Shown in pieces: positions 26,080-32,680 of a stretch of 57,730 bases of DNA. A program made the position numbers and the translations under genes. The stretch's first letter is position 1. Each line of letters opens with the position of its first letter. The DNA comes from Helicobacter cetorum (lineage in GTDB: Bacteria; Campylobacterota; Campylobacteria; Campylobacterales; BB28): contig DZAZ01000005.1 of assembly GCA_022729755.1 (NCBI GenBank), positions 1 through 57,730 on the forward strand. Direction: 5' to 3'. Under the pieces are notes generated by a model. That model worked only from the letters and a program-made list of their open reading frames with translations, was not told where the DNA came from and made no database searches.

Positions 26080-26607
26080 ATGGATTTTGATTTTATGGGT
26101 TATATCGATAAAGGTGGCATAATAATGTATATTTTGCTTGTGCTTAATTTTGTCGGTTATTCGCTAATGTTAGCTAGTTTTTTATTACTTTTAAGCACAA
26201 AATTAAATAAGTTTAACTTAATTAATAATATTTTACAAAAAAATAAATTTGAAGTTGAAAAAGATGTAGCAATTAAAATTTTAAAAGATGAGTTGACTTC
26301 AAAACTTAAATCTATGGAGTTTGGTTTAAATACAGTCAAAATAATTGCTACAATTTCTCCACTTCTTGGACTTTTAGGAACAGTTGTTGGCGTTTTTAGT
26401 GCTTTTGAAATAATTAGTAAAAATGGTTTAAGTGACCCTTTAGTTTTTGCAGATGGAATTTCACTAGCATTAATTACAACAGTTGGAGGCTTAATTGTTG
26501 CAATTCCCCATTATATCGGATATAACTACTTAATAGGAATGGTTGATAATTTGGAAGTTGAAATCGAAAAAGAGTTATTTAAAAAATATTTTGGAATTTC
26601 AAATTGA
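26080..26607 (+). CDS. exbB: MotA/TolQ/ExbB proton channel family protein
   Basis: TISPLLGLLGTVVGVFSAFEII, ALITTVGGLIVAIP. Confidence 0.92.
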   Translation: MDFDFMGYIDKGGIIMYILLVLNFVGYSLMLASFLLLLSTKLNKFNLINNILQKNKFEVEKDVAIKILKDELTSKLKSMEFGLNTVKIIATISPLLGLLGTVVGVFSAFEIISKNGLSDPLVFADGISLALITTVGGLIVAIPHYIGYNYLIGMVDNLEVEIEKELFKKYFGISN

Positions 26608-26996
26608 AACGAAGAGAACCATTAACTCCCGATATTACTCCACTTATTGATATTGTATTTTTACTTTTGATTTTTTTTATGGTTTCGAGTGTATTTAAAA
26701 AAGAGGAATTAGCACTACTTCTTAATTTGCCAAAAGTAAGTGAAACTTCAAAAGAGATAGAAGAAAAAGAGATAAATTTGGAGTTAAACTCTAATGAATT
26801 GGCTTATAATGGCAAGAAAGTCTCTTTTGAAAATTTATCAAATGAACTTAGTTTAATTAGTAAAAAAGAGGTTGTAATAATCCTTAGAATTGATAAAGAG
26901 GTTAAATATGAGCGAATTATTCAATTACTTGAAATTTTGCAAAAATATGATTTGAATAATTTAGCACTTATCAATGAAACAAAATTTAAAAATTAA
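26604..26996 (+). CDS. exbD: ExbD/TolR family biopolymer transport protein
   Basis: EPLTPDITPLIDIVFLLLIFFMV. Confidence 0.92.
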   Translation: MKRREPLTPDITPLIDIVFLLLIFFMVSSVFKKEELALLLNLPKVSETSKEIEEKEINLELNSNELAYNGKKVSFENLSNELSLISKKEVVIILRIDKEVKYERIIQLLEILQKYDLNNLALINETKFKN

Positions 26997-27099: not shown

Positions 27100-27212
27100 A
27101 AAATTTGAATTATTTAAAATTTAGTGATTTATCAAAAGAGTTTAATATTTTATGTAAAGATGCAGATGTTACAAAATAATTTTAAATTAAATTTACTATA
27201 AAAAGGCAAATA

Positions 27213-27944
27213 ATGAGTTTAGAACAATTTTTAGAAAATTTAACACTTGAAGAGATAGATGAGCTTAGAAGATTAAAAGAGCAAAAACAAAAAAGCTATA
27301 ACTTTTCATCTTTAACAATGGAAAATTTAAATAACTTTTTTGATGTAAAAAAGAGTTTTAATAAAGAAGAGATTTTAAGTAGTTGGATTAAAAATAAAAT
27401 AGAGATACAAGATGAAGATTTAAGCTTTTTGACAAAACTACTTGCAAAAGAGAAAGAGTATATTGAAATATACAAAGAAGAGGATTTGAAAGTAAAATTT
27501 ATTGCACCAATATTAAATCAAATTGATTTTAGAGATGAAGTAAAAGAAATTAGAGATTTTTATGAAGAAAAAATTACATATAAAGGCGAAGACTTTATCT
27601 TAACTGGAGTTTGTGATTTTGTAGTCTCTAAAGGTTTGGATTATGCTAAAAAGCCATATTTCTTTATTCAAGAGTTCAAAAAAGGGTTTGACTCAAGCGA
27701 CCCACGACCACAACTCTTAGCAGAATTAATAAGTTCAATCGAGTTAAATAATTTCGATAGCATAAAAGGAGCTTATATCGTTGGAGCTATCTGGAATTTT
27801 GTAATTTTAGAGCGACTTGAGAGACATAAATATATCTATTATGTAAGTGAAAATTTTGATAGCACAAAGATAGAGGATTTAAAAGGAATTTATAAAAATC
27901 TTTTATTCGTCAAAGAGGAGATAATCAAGTGGGCAGAAAATTAA
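27213..27944 (+). CDS. PD-(D/E)XK nuclease-like protein A
   Basis: FILTGVCDFVVSKG...KPYFFIQEFKKG (D...ExK pattern); paralogue of 31042-31806. Confidence 0.55.
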   Translation: MSLEQFLENLTLEEIDELRRLKEQKQKSYNFSSLTMENLNNFFDVKKSFNKEEILSSWIKNKIEIQDEDLSFLTKLLAKEKEYIEIYKEEDLKVKFIAPILNQIDFRDEVKEIRDFYEEKITYKGEDFILTGVCDFVVSKGLDYAKKPYFFIQEFKKGFDSSDPRPQLLAELISSIELNNFDSIKGAYIVGAIWNFVILERLERHKYIYYVSENFDSTKIEDLKGIYKNLLFVKEEIIKWAEN

Positions 27945-28780
27945 TAAGCTTTGATTGGGCGATGAAAAAAATACTAAGAGAGAAAGCTAACTTTGATATT
28001 TTAGAAGGGTTTTTGAGTGAGCTTTTATGTTTTGATGTTTTTATAGTTGAGATTTTAGAGAGTGAAGCAAATCAAGAGTATGAAAAAAATAAATTTAATC
28101 GAGTTGATTTATTGGCAAAAGATAGTCAAAATAGATTTATCTTAATCGAACTTCAACACGATAGCGAAAACGATTATTTTCATAGAATGGTTTATGGCGC
28201 TTCTAAACTTATAAGTGAGTATTTTGATGTTGGTGAGCCTTATTCAAATATTAAAAAAGTCTATTCTATAAATATCGTCTATTTTGGGCTTGGTCAAGGA
28301 AGTGATTATCTGTATAAAGGCGAAATAAACTTTAAGGGCTTAAATAGAGCCGATACATTGGAGCTTAACGACAAACAAAAAGAGTTATTTGGAGAGATAA
28401 AAGTTAAAGATATTTTTCCAGAATTTTATATCATCAAAGTTAATAACTTCGATAAACTCTCCAAAAAATCGACAATTGATGAGTGGATATATTTTCTAAA
28501 AACAGAAGAGATAAAAGAGGATTTCAAAGCCAAAGGATTAGAAAAAGCAAAAGAGAAGCTTGATGTTTTGAAACTTCCAAATAAAGAGAGAATTGCTTAT
28601 AAAAGAAATTTGGAAAATAAGAGTTTGGAAAAGTCTGTTATAGCCACAGCAAAATTTGAGGGTGAGAGAGAAGCCAAAATAGAGATTGCGAAAAATTTGC
28701 TTGATGTTTTGGATATTGAGACAATAGCCAAAAAAACGGGTTTAAGTGTTGAAGATATAAAATCACTGCACAAAGATTAA
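27929..28780 (+). CDS. Rpn family/PDDEXK-type nuclease-transposase-like protein (PF12784-like)
   Basis: LISFDWAMKKILREKANFDILEGFLSELL; NRVDLLAKDSQNRFILIELQHD active-site pattern. Confidence 0.8.
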   Translation: MGRKLISFDWAMKKILREKANFDILEGFLSELLCFDVFIVEILESEANQEYEKNKFNRVDLLAKDSQNRFILIELQHDSENDYFHRMVYGASKLISEYFDVGEPYSNIKKVYSINIVYFGLGQGSDYLYKGEINFKGLNRADTLELNDKQKELFGEIKVKDIFPEFYIIKVNNFDKLSKKSTIDEWIYFLKTEEIKEDFKAKGLEKAKEKLDVLKLPNKERIAYKRNLENKSLEKSVIATAKFEGEREAKIEIAKNLLDVLDIETIAKKTGLSVEDIKSLHKD

Positions 28781-28789
28781 AGGCGAAAT

Positions 28790-30109
28790 ATGGAATTAGT
28801 CTATTTATGGGTAGAAGAGTATAAAAATATAAAACGACAAGGGTTTAATTTTAGTCCGAGGTTTAAGTGTAATTATGATGAAAATACAAATGAACTTACC
28901 ATTAATGAAAATAAAGATTATGTGAGTATTTTTCCTAAAAATATAAATGTTACGGCAATTGTTGGAGAGAATGGGAGTGGAAAGAGTAGTATAATATTTC
29001 AAGATGAGAATAGAGGACAAGGATTTACTAGTAATTTTAAAATTATTTTTGAAAATAATAGATTAATTTTATTTGAACCATTTAAAGAGTTCTGGGATGA
29101 TGATGGTCCATATATAAAAAAATTTAATATAAAAAACAATACAAATTTTAAACATAAATTACGAACTGTATATGATTATCTTAAAATTAATTCAAAAGAT
29201 AAACAATATTTTACGAGTAAGTCTAATGGCAAATCATTAGATGAAGAATTTAGTCTATATTTTAATTGGGATATTTTAAAATATTTTTTTAAAGATGAAT
29301 ATTATGAAACATATAGTTATGGGGTATGGAAGGAAAATAAAAATATTCTTATACCTTTAATAGTTGAAGAAAGTCATACAATTTCTTATAAATATTTTTT
29401 AAACAATGTAAATACAAAAATTCTCAATTTCATAAAAAAACATGAAAAAGAAGCCATTTGTTTCTTTGAAAAATTTAATTTTAAAATTTTAAAAGAAATC
29501 CCAAACGAGCATAAAATAGTTGATATATTTGATTTAAGTCATGGAGAACGGTATCAATTTTTATTATTTTTTATTATCTTAGATAAGTGTTTTGATAAAA
29601 ATAAGAATTTAATAATTTATTTAGATGAACCTGATTTAACATTACATCCAAGATGGCAAAAAAAATTTATTAAAAAATGTATAGAAGTTTTTTCATTATT
29701 TCCTTATCAAATACATATTATTATTGCTTCTCACTCCCCCTTTATCCTCTCCGACTTACCAAAAAAAAATGTAATATTTTTAGAAAAAGGCAAACAAGTA
29801 GATGTAGATATTAACACTTTCGGAGCAAATATCCACACTCTGCTTTCTCACGGTTTTTTTATGAGCGATGGACTTATGGGCAAGTTTGCGAAAGAGAAAA
29901 TACAATCAGTTATAGATTTTTTAAATCATGATAACAACAATCAACTTAACCAGCAAAAAGCTTTGGCAATTATCCAACTTATTGGTGAGCCGATTTTGAA
30001 AAATAAGCTTTTAAAAATGTATGAAAAAAAATTTCATATAAAATCAAAAGATGAAGAAATAGTAGAATTAAAAGCAGAAATCGAAAGACTTAAAAATGAT
30101 AAAAATTAA
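28790..30109 (+). CDS. ABC/SMC-like AAA ATPase, PtuA-like (defence-associated)
   Basis: Walker A GENGSGKSS; signature-like LSHGERYQ; Walker B LIIYLDEPDLTLHP; H-loop IIASHSPFILSDLP; overlaps the HNH gene by 14 nt. Confidence 0.82.
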   Translation: MELVYLWVEEYKNIKRQGFNFSPRFKCNYDENTNELTINENKDYVSIFPKNINVTAIVGENGSGKSSIIFQDENRGQGFTSNFKIIFENNRLILFEPFKEFWDDDGPYIKKFNIKNNTNFKHKLRTVYDYLKINSKDKQYFTSKSNGKSLDEEFSLYFNWDILKYFFKDEYYETYSYGVWKENKNILIPLIVEESHTISYKYFLNNVNTKILNFIKKHEKEAICFFEKFNFKILKEIPNEHKIVDIFDLSHGERYQFLLFFIILDKCFDKNKNLIIYLDEPDLTLHPRWQKKFIKKCIEVFSLFPYQIHIIIASHSPFILSDLPKKNVIFLEKGKQVDVDINTFGANIHTLLSHGFFMSDGLMGKFAKEKIQSVIDFLNHDNNNQLNQQKALAIIQLIGEPILKNKLLKMYEKKFHIKSKDEEIVELKAEIERLKNDKN

Positions 30110-31031
30110 ATTTAATCAAAAGCTTTTTGATAAGCATATTGACAATATTTCTTCAAAGATAAAAGAATTAATAAAAATAGATAATTCAATTTTAAAAGAC
30201 TTAAAAGAAACTGATAAAAATTGTTTGATTTATATAGACAAAAATATAGAAAATATTTTAAAAGCTGATAATAACAAATTGAAAGAATATATAAAATATT
30301 TTCAAACTAATTATCCACATTCAATTGGAGTAGAAAATCAGAAAAAAGAAGATTGGCTTCATTTATATAAAATATTAAGAGATGAAATTTTTGAAAAAGA
30401 ATACAATAATTGGGGAAAGAGAATAAAAGAATACAATGCTTATGAATTTGTAAAAATATTAGATTTAAAAACTTGTCCTTATTGCAACCGAAATTATACT
30501 TTTGTGGTTGATGAAAAAAGTGGAAAACTAAGACCTGAAATTGACCATTTTTATCCTAAATCTATATATCCATTTTTGGCTATGAGTTTTTATAATCTCA
30601 TTCCAAGTTGTCCTATTTGTAATCATACAAAAAGTAGTAAAAATACTGAAAATTTGATAAATCCTTATGATATAAAAGATGATGATTTTAAATTTACATA
30701 TACTCCTAAAGATATTGATTTTACAAATATTGAAAATAAAAAATATAATTTTGATAGTTTTAAGATAGAGTTTCAATCTTCAATAAAAGCTAATGATGAA
30801 ATATTTAAATTAACAAAACTTTACGAACAACATAAAGATATAGTTATAGAACTTCTAATAAAAAAAATTTATTATCCACAAAGTTATATTGATGAACTTT
30901 CAAAATTTGGTTTTGAAAAAGATGAAATTTACAGATATTTATTATGTAATTACATCAAAGATGAAGACTTGCATAAGCGACCACTTAGCAAACTCATAAA
31001 AGACATTAGCGAAGAGCTTGATTTAATATAA
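30096..31031 (+). CDS. HNH endonuclease, PtuB-like
   Basis: CPYCNRNYTF...PEIDHFYPKS...NLIPSCPICNHTKSS. Confidence 0.85.
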   Translation: MIKIKFNQKLFDKHIDNISSKIKELIKIDNSILKDLKETDKNCLIYIDKNIENILKADNNKLKEYIKYFQTNYPHSIGVENQKKEDWLHLYKILRDEIFEKEYNNWGKRIKEYNAYEFVKILDLKTCPYCNRNYTFVVDEKSGKLRPEIDHFYPKSIYPFLAMSFYNLIPSCPICNHTKSSKNTENLINPYDIKDDDFKFTYTPKDIDFTNIENKKYNFDSFKIEFQSSIKANDEIFKLTKLYEQHKDIVIELLIKKIYYPQSYIDELSKFGFEKDEIYRYLLCNYIKDEDLHKRPLSKLIKDISEELDLI

Positions 31032-31041
31032 AAGGCAAAAT

Positions 31042-31806
31042 ATGAGCGAAGAGTTAGAACTAAAACTATTTCAAAAAATAGAAGAGCTTGAGAAAGAGAT
31101 TAGAGAGCTAAAAGGTGAAGAGGTTTCAAAAGTTCCAATTTATAGCTTTTCTAAAATTAGGTTTAAAGATTTAGAGAGTTTAGTTAATATTCAAGAAAGT
31201 TTTGATGATAAAATTTTTGAAACTTGGTTTAATAGTATTAATTTAACAGATGAGAATGTTATCGATTTTTTATCAAAATTATTAATTAAAGAGGGAAAAT
31301 ATATAAAATATTACAATGAGGAAAATTTGAAAATTAAATTTATAGCTCAAATAATTAATTTAGTGGATTTTAATATTTCTGAAAATCTTAAAGACTTTTA
31401 TGAAGAAACTTTAACTTATCAAACAGAAAATTTTATTTTTACAGGAAATGTTGATTTTTTAGTATCTAAAGGAGTAAAAAAATCCGAAAAACCATATTTT
31501 TTCATTCAAGAGTTTAAAAAAGGCAAAGAAAATTCCGACCCAGAACCTCAATTATTAACAGAATTAATAGCAGGGGTTGAGTTAAACAATTGGCAAAGTA
31601 TAAAAGGAGCTTATATTGTCGGAGCTATTTGGAATTTTGTGATATTAGAACGAATTGAAAAGCATAAATATATCTATTATGTGAGTGTAAATTTTGATAG
31701 TTCAAAAATAGAAGATTTGAAAGGAATTTATAAAAATTTATTGTATGTTAAAAATGAGATAATTAAACTAAATAATGGAAGGGTGAATGAAAGTATTAAT
31801 AGTTGA
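31042..31806 (+). CDS. PD-(D/E)XK nuclease-like protein B
   Basis: FIFTGNVDFLVSKG...KPYFFIQEFKKG; C-terminal half nearly identical to protein A (KGAYIVGAIWNFVILER.E.HKYIYYVS.NFDS.KIEDLKGIYKNLL). Confidence 0.55.
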   Translation: MSEELELKLFQKIEELEKEIRELKGEEVSKVPIYSFSKIRFKDLESLVNIQESFDDKIFETWFNSINLTDENVIDFLSKLLIKEGKYIKYYNEENLKIKFIAQIINLVDFNISENLKDFYEETLTYQTENFIFTGNVDFLVSKGVKKSEKPYFFIQEFKKGKENSDPEPQLLTELIAGVELNNWQSIKGAYIVGAIWNFVILERIEKHKYIYYVSVNFDSSKIEDLKGIYKNLLYVKNEIIKLNNGRVNESINS

Positions 31807-32680
31807 AAATGAGATTTATTTGGCACAAAGTATTTATTCAAAGTTGTCAGAAATTGGATATACTCCAGAAATTGCAACAACACTAAAGGAGGCTATGAAA
31901 GATGAGATGTATGATATTGTACTTCTTTCAACAAATGTTTCGGGGCAAAATTTTTACCCTATCATTTCAAAATATAAAGATGCAATTATTTTGCTTATGA
32001 TTTCTTATATTAGTAATGATACGGTTAGTAATCCCCTACAAGCTGGGGCAAATGATTATATATTAAAGCCATTTATGATGGAGGAGCTTATTAGAAAAAT
32101 AGAGCATTTTTTGGATTATGAAACTTTAAAAAGGGAAAATAATGCATTTAATAACTATATAAATTTTAGTTTTGAAAATGTTTCAAAGAATGCTTCAATA
32201 CTAACTTTAAAGGATAATTTGCCACTTTTAATAAAAACAAGTTATCAAAAACAAGCAGATGCTTTTGCATTTAAAGTTGCAAAAACGAATAAAAAAGTGC
32301 TTGAATTTATCTCTTTAAATAATCTTGAGTGGAAAGAACATTTAAATTCGATTGTAAAAGATTGTATTATTTATATGGCACCCTTGCAAAATATGAAAAA
32401 ACTTGATAGAAAGGAGCTTCTTGAAGCAATAAAAGATAAGAATGTAATAGTTTCAACTATTGATGCTCAAGATGAGTTACCAATCAATACAATTGAGATT
32501 AAAAGTGACAATAGAATTTTTGATAGAGGAAATATACTATCAATTGATGATTATATAAAATTTGTCGTGGTAAATTATCAAAATAAATATCCTGATATTG
32601 AAATTAGTAAAAAATTAGGTATTAGTAGGAAAAATTTATGGGAAAAGAGAAAAAAATATGGAATTATTAAGAAAAAATAG
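31787..32680 (+). CDS. Atypical orphan response regulator, HP1021/Cj1608-like
   Basis: Degenerate receiver (DIVLLSTNVSG lacks the phospho-Asp), C-terminal Fis-like HTH (ISKKLGISRKNLWEKRKKYGI); adjacent to a sat-like gene as in Campylobacter Cj1608-Cj1609. Confidence 0.75.
   Translation: MKVLIVENEIYLAQSIYSKLSEIGYTPEIATTLKEAMKDEMYDIVLLSTNVSGQNFYPIISKYKDAIILLMISYISNDTVSNPLQAGANDYILKPFMMEELIRKIEHFLDYETLKRENNAFNNYINFSFENVSKNASILTLKDNLPLLIKTSYQKQADAFAFKVAKTNKKVLEFISLNNLEWKEHLNSIVKDCIIYMAPLQNMKKLDRKELLEAIKDKNVIVSTIDAQDELPINTIEIKSDNRIFDRGNILSIDDYIKFVVVNYQNKYPDIEISKKLGISRKNLWEKRKKYGIIKKK

Follow-up and report, generated by a model that had tools for sequence, protein, structure and literature searches.

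The PtuAB modules of Septu and of retron I-A/Ec78 combine an ABC-type ATPase, PtuA, with an HNH nuclease, PtuB. For PtuAB of retron-Eco7 and of one E. coli Septu, depletion or cleavage of tRNA-Tyr has been described, while DNA has been reported as the target of another Septu (PMC11555353, PMC13096335). For the Bacillus cereus group, a survey has shown that many calls of PDC-M62—a two-component defence candidate of the PADLOC database—coincide with DefenseFinder Septu calls (PMC11811056). Rpn proteins, in turn, have been reported as gene-within-gene toxin-antitoxins with an anti-phage effect, and rpn genes are reported to be enriched near defence genes (PMC10327210).

The locus considered here lies in a window of 57,730 nucleotides from Helicobacter cetorum, the window being the whole stretch of DNA that was analysed. 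In an initial annotation, five adjoining genes of this window—an ATPase gene, an HNH nuclease gene, an rpn-type gene and two genes for PD-(D/E)XK-like proteins, PDDEXK-A and PDDEXK-B (A and B in the following)—were proposed to form a single multi-nuclease defence system. Comparison with related loci leads to a different reading: very probably, the locus is a composite, in which a self-contained Septu-like pair stands beside the independent, dispersed nucleases A, Rpn and B, rather than one system.

Arrangement of the locus

The stretch comprises five intact ORFs in the same (+) direction: A (27213-27944; 243 aa), Rpn (27929-28780; 283 aa), the ATPase (28790-30109; 439 aa), the HNH protein (30096-31031; 311 aa) and B (31042-31806; 254 aa). 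A and Rpn overlap by 16 nt and ATPase and HNH by 14 nt; gaps of 9 nt and 10 nt separate Rpn from ATPase and HNH from B, respectively. Upstream, exbD (26604-26996, + strand; Pfam ExbD 2.2e-26) ends 216 nt before the five genes. Downstream, B overlaps by 20 nt a flanking housekeeping gene of the HP1021-like response-regulator type (31787-32680, + strand; Pfam Response_reg). ORF analysis and Pfam thus bear out the layout between exbD and regulator that had been described initially. Rpn begins with GTG, a start that was accepted because its paralogues open with the same motif. No terminator-like site was found between the five genes and, given their shared direction and tight packing, a common transcript is possible, so that all five may be co-transcribed. 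The GC content is 21-24% in HNH, ATPase and B versus 27-30% in A and Rpn, a difference that would be compatible with separate arrivals and that is weak evidence when taken alone.

In a relative, G001, the regulator is directly preceded by a Pfam-confirmed IspD/IspF-type gene, and an ispDF-like gene, recognized by the beginning of its sequence, occupies this position in G397, G398 and G399. In the genome of the window, the ispDF gene is found on another contig (L230/L231, G000 contig C109), unlinked from the regulator at 31787. Since the ispDF-regulator link of the four relatives is broken here, the cassette sits at a rearranged junction. A spot at which this ancestral link has been broken probably tolerates insertions, and A, Rpn and B would have gathered there for that reason.

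The ATPase-HNH pair

The two central genes match the components of PADLOC PDC-M62 with high significance—the ATPase matches PDC-M62A with an E value of 1.7e-106 and the HNH protein PDC-M62B with 1.3e-73—and they lie side by side with their 14-nt overlap, as the two-component definition of this candidate demands. The ATPase also matches Pfam AAA_21/AAA_15 and carries the ABC motifs of the Septu ATPase: a Walker A motif (GENGSGKS) at residue 59, a signature motif (LSHGE) at 249, a Walker B motif (IIYLDEPD) at 275 and an H-loop (ASHSP) at 313, the key residues of which are invariant across 33 aligned homologues. The adjoining gene supplies the HNH nuclease that Septu calls for. Its product scores 21.5 bits against Pfam HNH (cut-off 21.4), and its HNH-type motifs CPYCNRNY, IDHFYPKS and YNLIPSC..CN are invariant in 17 homologues; KRPLSK near the C terminus is an invariant segment as well. 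Outside the nuclease motifs, the strongest conservation in the alignment of M62B proteins falls on the C-terminal segment KRPLSKLIKDISEEL, residues 294-308 of this protein (about 30975-31019). The ATPase motifs put forward in the initial annotation, like the HNH motifs, are real and conserved in homologues.

Among solved structures, the nearest relatives of the ATPase by sequence are the PtuA chains of retron I-A/Ec78 (PDB, 4e-7 to 1e-5), and an HNH profile matches the HNH chain of retron I-A, 9n69_F, at 1.4e-5. The retron I-A complex 9n69 is thereby the entry in which the best solved relatives of both proteins coincide. When the HNH model was run through Foldseek, retron PtuB chains took the four best ranks with E values of 0.2 to 1.2, none of them significant. 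In PADLOC, the PtuA/PtuB models score far below PDC-M62 for this pair, and the NCBIfam equivalogs for PtuA/PtuB of the retron Ec78 type, NF041760 and NF041761, yield 45.9 and 16.6 bits against cut-offs of 500 and 150 bits. The pair is a PtuA/PtuB-like (Septu-like) two-gene module, and it is already catalogued in PADLOC-DB, as the defence candidate PDC-M62. The assignment of ATPase plus HNH to the PtuA/PtuB architecture is accordingly upheld by PADLOC, which recovers the pair as two-component PDC-M62, by the PDB sequence matches, by the HNH profile and by the fold ranking. As for the mechanism, we infer from the analogy with PtuAB that an ATPase oligomer probably keeps the HNH nuclease inactive, that phage infection would probably release or activate the nuclease, and that the freed enzyme would then cut tRNA or DNA and thereby probably stop phage growth.

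Recurrence of the pair

A search of 397 genomes from the same class recovered relatives of the ATPase in 55, and 40 ATPase loci were read with several kb on each side. The HNH gene adjoins the ATPase gene in 38 of them; the two exceptions are L101 and L073, the latter holding no more than an N-terminal portion of the ATPase where the contig ends. The spacing between the two genes ranges from -50 to +2 nt and equals -14 in seven loci, matching the window. Across the 40 loci, the pair has no further gene as a recurrent neighbour. In two repeated spots the pair stands alone, one flanked by an amidase-like gene and a nudix-like gene, the other adjoining a luxS-like gene (names judged from sequence).

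Homologues of A, B or Rpn were found within about 5 kb of none of the 40 pair loci (tblastn 1e-3; profiles 1e-3). Where a genome holds both the ATPase and a PF12784 Rpn (G001, G178, G285, G303, G335), or both the ATPase and an A-family gene (G001, G285), the copies lie on different contigs, a comparison made among the matches listed and in fragmented assemblies, which renders it supportive rather than absolute. Linkage tests are limited by the many relatives that are MAGs in many contigs, and few genomes permit a direct test of co-occurrence because A-family genes are present in only 3 of 397 genomes of the class at the threshold used. In the reverse direction, the M62 HNH profile matched, across the A-family loci read, in the window only. 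The idea that A/B-like proteins recur beside ATPase-HNH pairs consequently failed in both directions. The initial annotation had itself named a lack of co-occurrence of the extra nucleases with the pair as evidence against its proposal, and this is largely what was found.

A pattern search for the ATPase in viral contigs gave no match; a pattern scan of genome contigs gave none either, the patterns being over-specific. For the HNH protein, one weak match to a phage record was obtained.

The Rpn gene

The second gene had been called an Rpn-type nuclease, and this identification is confirmed by curated models: its product reaches 1.1e-24 and 87.9 bits against Pfam PF12784 (PDDEXK_2; cut-off 27.4) and 1.2e-22 and 81 bits against NCBIfam TIGR01784 (cut-off 52.1). 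By its sequence, it is a predicted, true Rpn-family PD-(D/E)XK nuclease. The source assembly is fragmented, its 2.1 Mb being spread over 132 contigs at 88% completeness, and the stretches around matches were read. The genome contains at least seven PF12784 matches, plus partial copies, several of which are located at contig ends. Rpn copies or C-terminal pieces of them lie at the ends of contigs C76, C64, C126, C94 and C100 of this genome, G000 (L060, L061, L063, L064 and L058). The assembly thus seems to be broken at this repeated family, and the copy numbers are to be read as minima.

The PDDEXK-A/B family

A and B are 57% identical as proteins, and over the 3′ two thirds of the genes their DNA is 75% identical. 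Neither reaches the cut-off of any Pfam or NCBIfam model, the family has no PHROG model, and across 50 members Pfam returns two marginal single matches and otherwise none; the sole named match of A/B is a Cas-associated PD_DExK model of PADLOC, at about 1e-9. The AlphaFold model of A (pLDDT 91.9) matches the nuclease domain of the restriction enzyme DrdV, Cas4-type nucleases and lambda exonuclease in the PDB with E values of about 1e-3 to 1e-2; the fold matches with the lowest E values are mitoribosomal large-subunit proteins, which superpose loosely. The active site would be formed by E89/E90, D135, E154-F-K156 and Q167, and E89, D135, E154, K156 and Q167 are kept in 100-101 of 101 A-family sequences. 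With an E, D and ExK site placed in a fold that matches at modest scores, A and B are predicted, from sequence and model, to be PD-(D/E)XK nucleases, and their description as paralogous D...ExK proteins holds by identity, fold and conserved residues. The most variable part of the family is the N-terminal third, and B carries the other N-terminal type than A.

At least nine intact A-family genes, A and B included, and one fragment occur in the genome of the window. The copies are usually solitary between unrelated genes, and the paralogues are 51-63% identical to A. A and B do not group as sisters: the clade that unites them takes in 75 of 101 tips, from which it follows that they were not generated by a duplication bracketing the pair, and the copies of this genome span 90 of 101. 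The notion that A and B are the ends of an element, or a local duplication, enclosing the pair was rejected on the basis of this tree and of the own-genome copies, whose flanks have nothing in common over 300 nt beyond the ORF.

A scan of GTDB contigs yielded 274 relatives of A. The best 80 of these stem from Thiomargarita, Parabeggiatoa, Halobeggiatoa, Achromatium, Thioploca, Marithrix, Thiovulum, Sulfurovum and Campylobacteraceae MAGs, Desulfobacterales and Methylococcaceae, and one genome often contributes several contigs. Searches of viral contigs and of plasmids returned no match to A, and a literature search on the A/B family in sulfur bacteria returned nothing directly relevant. The neighbours were surveyed in the window, in these 80 loci from GTDB and in six further loci of the window's genome. 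The 134 neighbours, 65 upstream and 69 downstream, fall into 59 and 65 clusters, respectively, and because of this scatter the family can be said to lack a partner gene. Tight co-directional packing is seen at 33-34% of A copies versus 43% of the other gene pairs in the same loci.

Individual placements illustrate how closely the copies abut unrelated genes. One lies between the phosphoglycerate mutase gene gpmI and panB, and another between a gene for a 153-aa protein and a TtcA-like PP-loop gene, with a 4-nt downstream overlap in either case. Genes sucC and sucD normally adjoin; at L229:4720-7812 (G285 contig C60), they are separated by an A-family gene together with a 134-aa ORF that belongs to no known family. 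Several own-genome copies (L052:6345-7099, L056:6134-6886 and L057:6056-6793) are joined to their neighbours by 4-nt stop/start overlaps of the ATGA type, as though a start codon had been the point of insertion. For the own-genome copies beside panB, the TtcA-like gene and the 559-aa neighbour of L054, a comparison with relatives gave neither a clean empty site nor exact insertion ends, the gene order being different there. Defence-like neighbours are few: at L168:7923-9468, an A-family gene overlaps a RAMP superfamily (CRISPR-type) gene by 11 nt, and at L125 a copy adjoins an AAA_21 ATPase gene.

It is tentatively suggested that A and B represent an undescribed PD-(D/E)XK family whose members multiply as single genes and take up positions within clusters of host genes. 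Such a family would be present in multiple copies in giant sulfur bacteria (Thiomargarita, Parabeggiatoa, Achromatium, Thioploca), in Thiovulum, in other Campylobacterota MAGs and in some Desulfobacterales/Methylococcaceae. Its nuclease core would be invariant and its N-terminal third variable, and this third could determine specificity. It may help to explain part of the nuclease load in large sulfur bacteria. As a by-product of the analysis, the family is more interesting than the locus itself and merits its own study.

One system or a composite

In the five-gene system as originally conceived, the ATPase would sense infection and control HNH, Rpn, A and B as effectors encoded in one operon. 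The co-directional genes with their short overlaps or gaps, the lack of an internal terminator-like site and the intactness of all catalytic residues are what such a system would look like. However, A, B or Rpn accompany the pair in none of 40 loci, the HNH partner is found in no other A-family locus read, all three extra nucleases belong to dispersed multicopy families, A has no recurring neighbour, and A and B are not locus-specific duplicates. Nor is the packing at A copies tighter than background: tight packing alone is weak evidence here, as A-family copies abut unrelated genes at the background rate. While co-transcription of the five genes is possible, a functional partnership among them finds no comparative support. 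A joint system of this kind is thus highly improbable, and it drops off the list of candidates.

A composite of the self-contained pair and independent nucleases accounts for these observations. Several points pull against it: besides the tight co-directional packing and the limits on linkage tests, these are the near-invariant catalytic residues of A, which argue that the genes are not dead passengers, and the reported clustering of rpn with defence genes (PMC10327210), by virtue of which proximity may carry some selective value. A, Rpn and B probably act independently, Rpn as a toxic or anti-phage nuclease and A and B as restriction-like or selfish nucleases; we infer their separate action. 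The stretch might alternatively be a small defence island, whose separate units—the Septu-like pair, Rpn and the two PD-(D/E)XK proteins—each work alone at a spot that favours the keeping of defence genes. The toxin-antitoxin and anti-phage character of Rpn and its enrichment near defence genes (PMC10327210) fit this explanation, as do the RAMP/Cas-type gene of L168 and the AAA_21 ATPase gene of L125 adjoining A-family copies; but most A-family neighbours are housekeeping or miscellaneous genes (sucC/sucD, gpmI/panB, the TtcA-like PP-loop gene), so the family has no firm link to defence islands, and an island of this kind is conceivable but rather doubtful. It is a plausible thought, if one that falls short of being probable, that A, B and Rpn do nothing but promote recombination or their own propagation, having spread within the genome, and that the pair landed among them by chance. 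Multicopy, dispersed genes inside housekeeping clusters, own-genome copies that share no sequence beyond the ORF, and contigs that break in several Rpn copies would all be expected of such spread, yet the divergence of the copies points to a considerable age (51-63% identity to A; 90 of 101 tips), and their near-invariant catalytic residues resemble a maintained function more than a recent burst. The composite remains the preferred reading.

Comparison with known systems

With the PD-(D/E)XK superfamily, as exemplified by DrdV, Cas4, lambda exonuclease and YqaJ, A and B share E, D, ExK and Q residues on matching elements; unlike the named nucleases of this superfamily, they belong to a family for which Pfam, NCBIfam and PHROG hold no model. 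Rpn resembles its family, PF12784/TIGR01784, in scoring above the curated cut-offs and in the dispersal of its copies, as reported for rpn. It may differ from RpnS-bearing Rpn proteins: a small antitoxin form is not evident in this copy because its C-terminal third has no internal ATG, only in-frame TTG codons, for which a ribosome-binding site is not clear by eye.

The likeness of the pair to Septu (PtuA/PtuB) and to PtuAB of retron I-A/Ec78 resides in the combination of an ABC-type ATPase with an HNH nuclease; unlike these retrons, the five-gene stretch holds no reverse transcriptase gene. In contrast to other PDC-M62 loci, the pair of the window has three extra nuclease neighbours. Its ATPase is compact, with 439 aa compared to mostly 503-665 aa in intact homologues. 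That it might be a decayed gene was considered and rejected, since no motif is lacking and the shortening is distributed among many variable loops. In its defining features the pair agrees with PADLOC PDC-M62, both proteins matching strongly and the two overlapping genes following the same order, and it stays a sound, compact representative of this Septu-like candidate.
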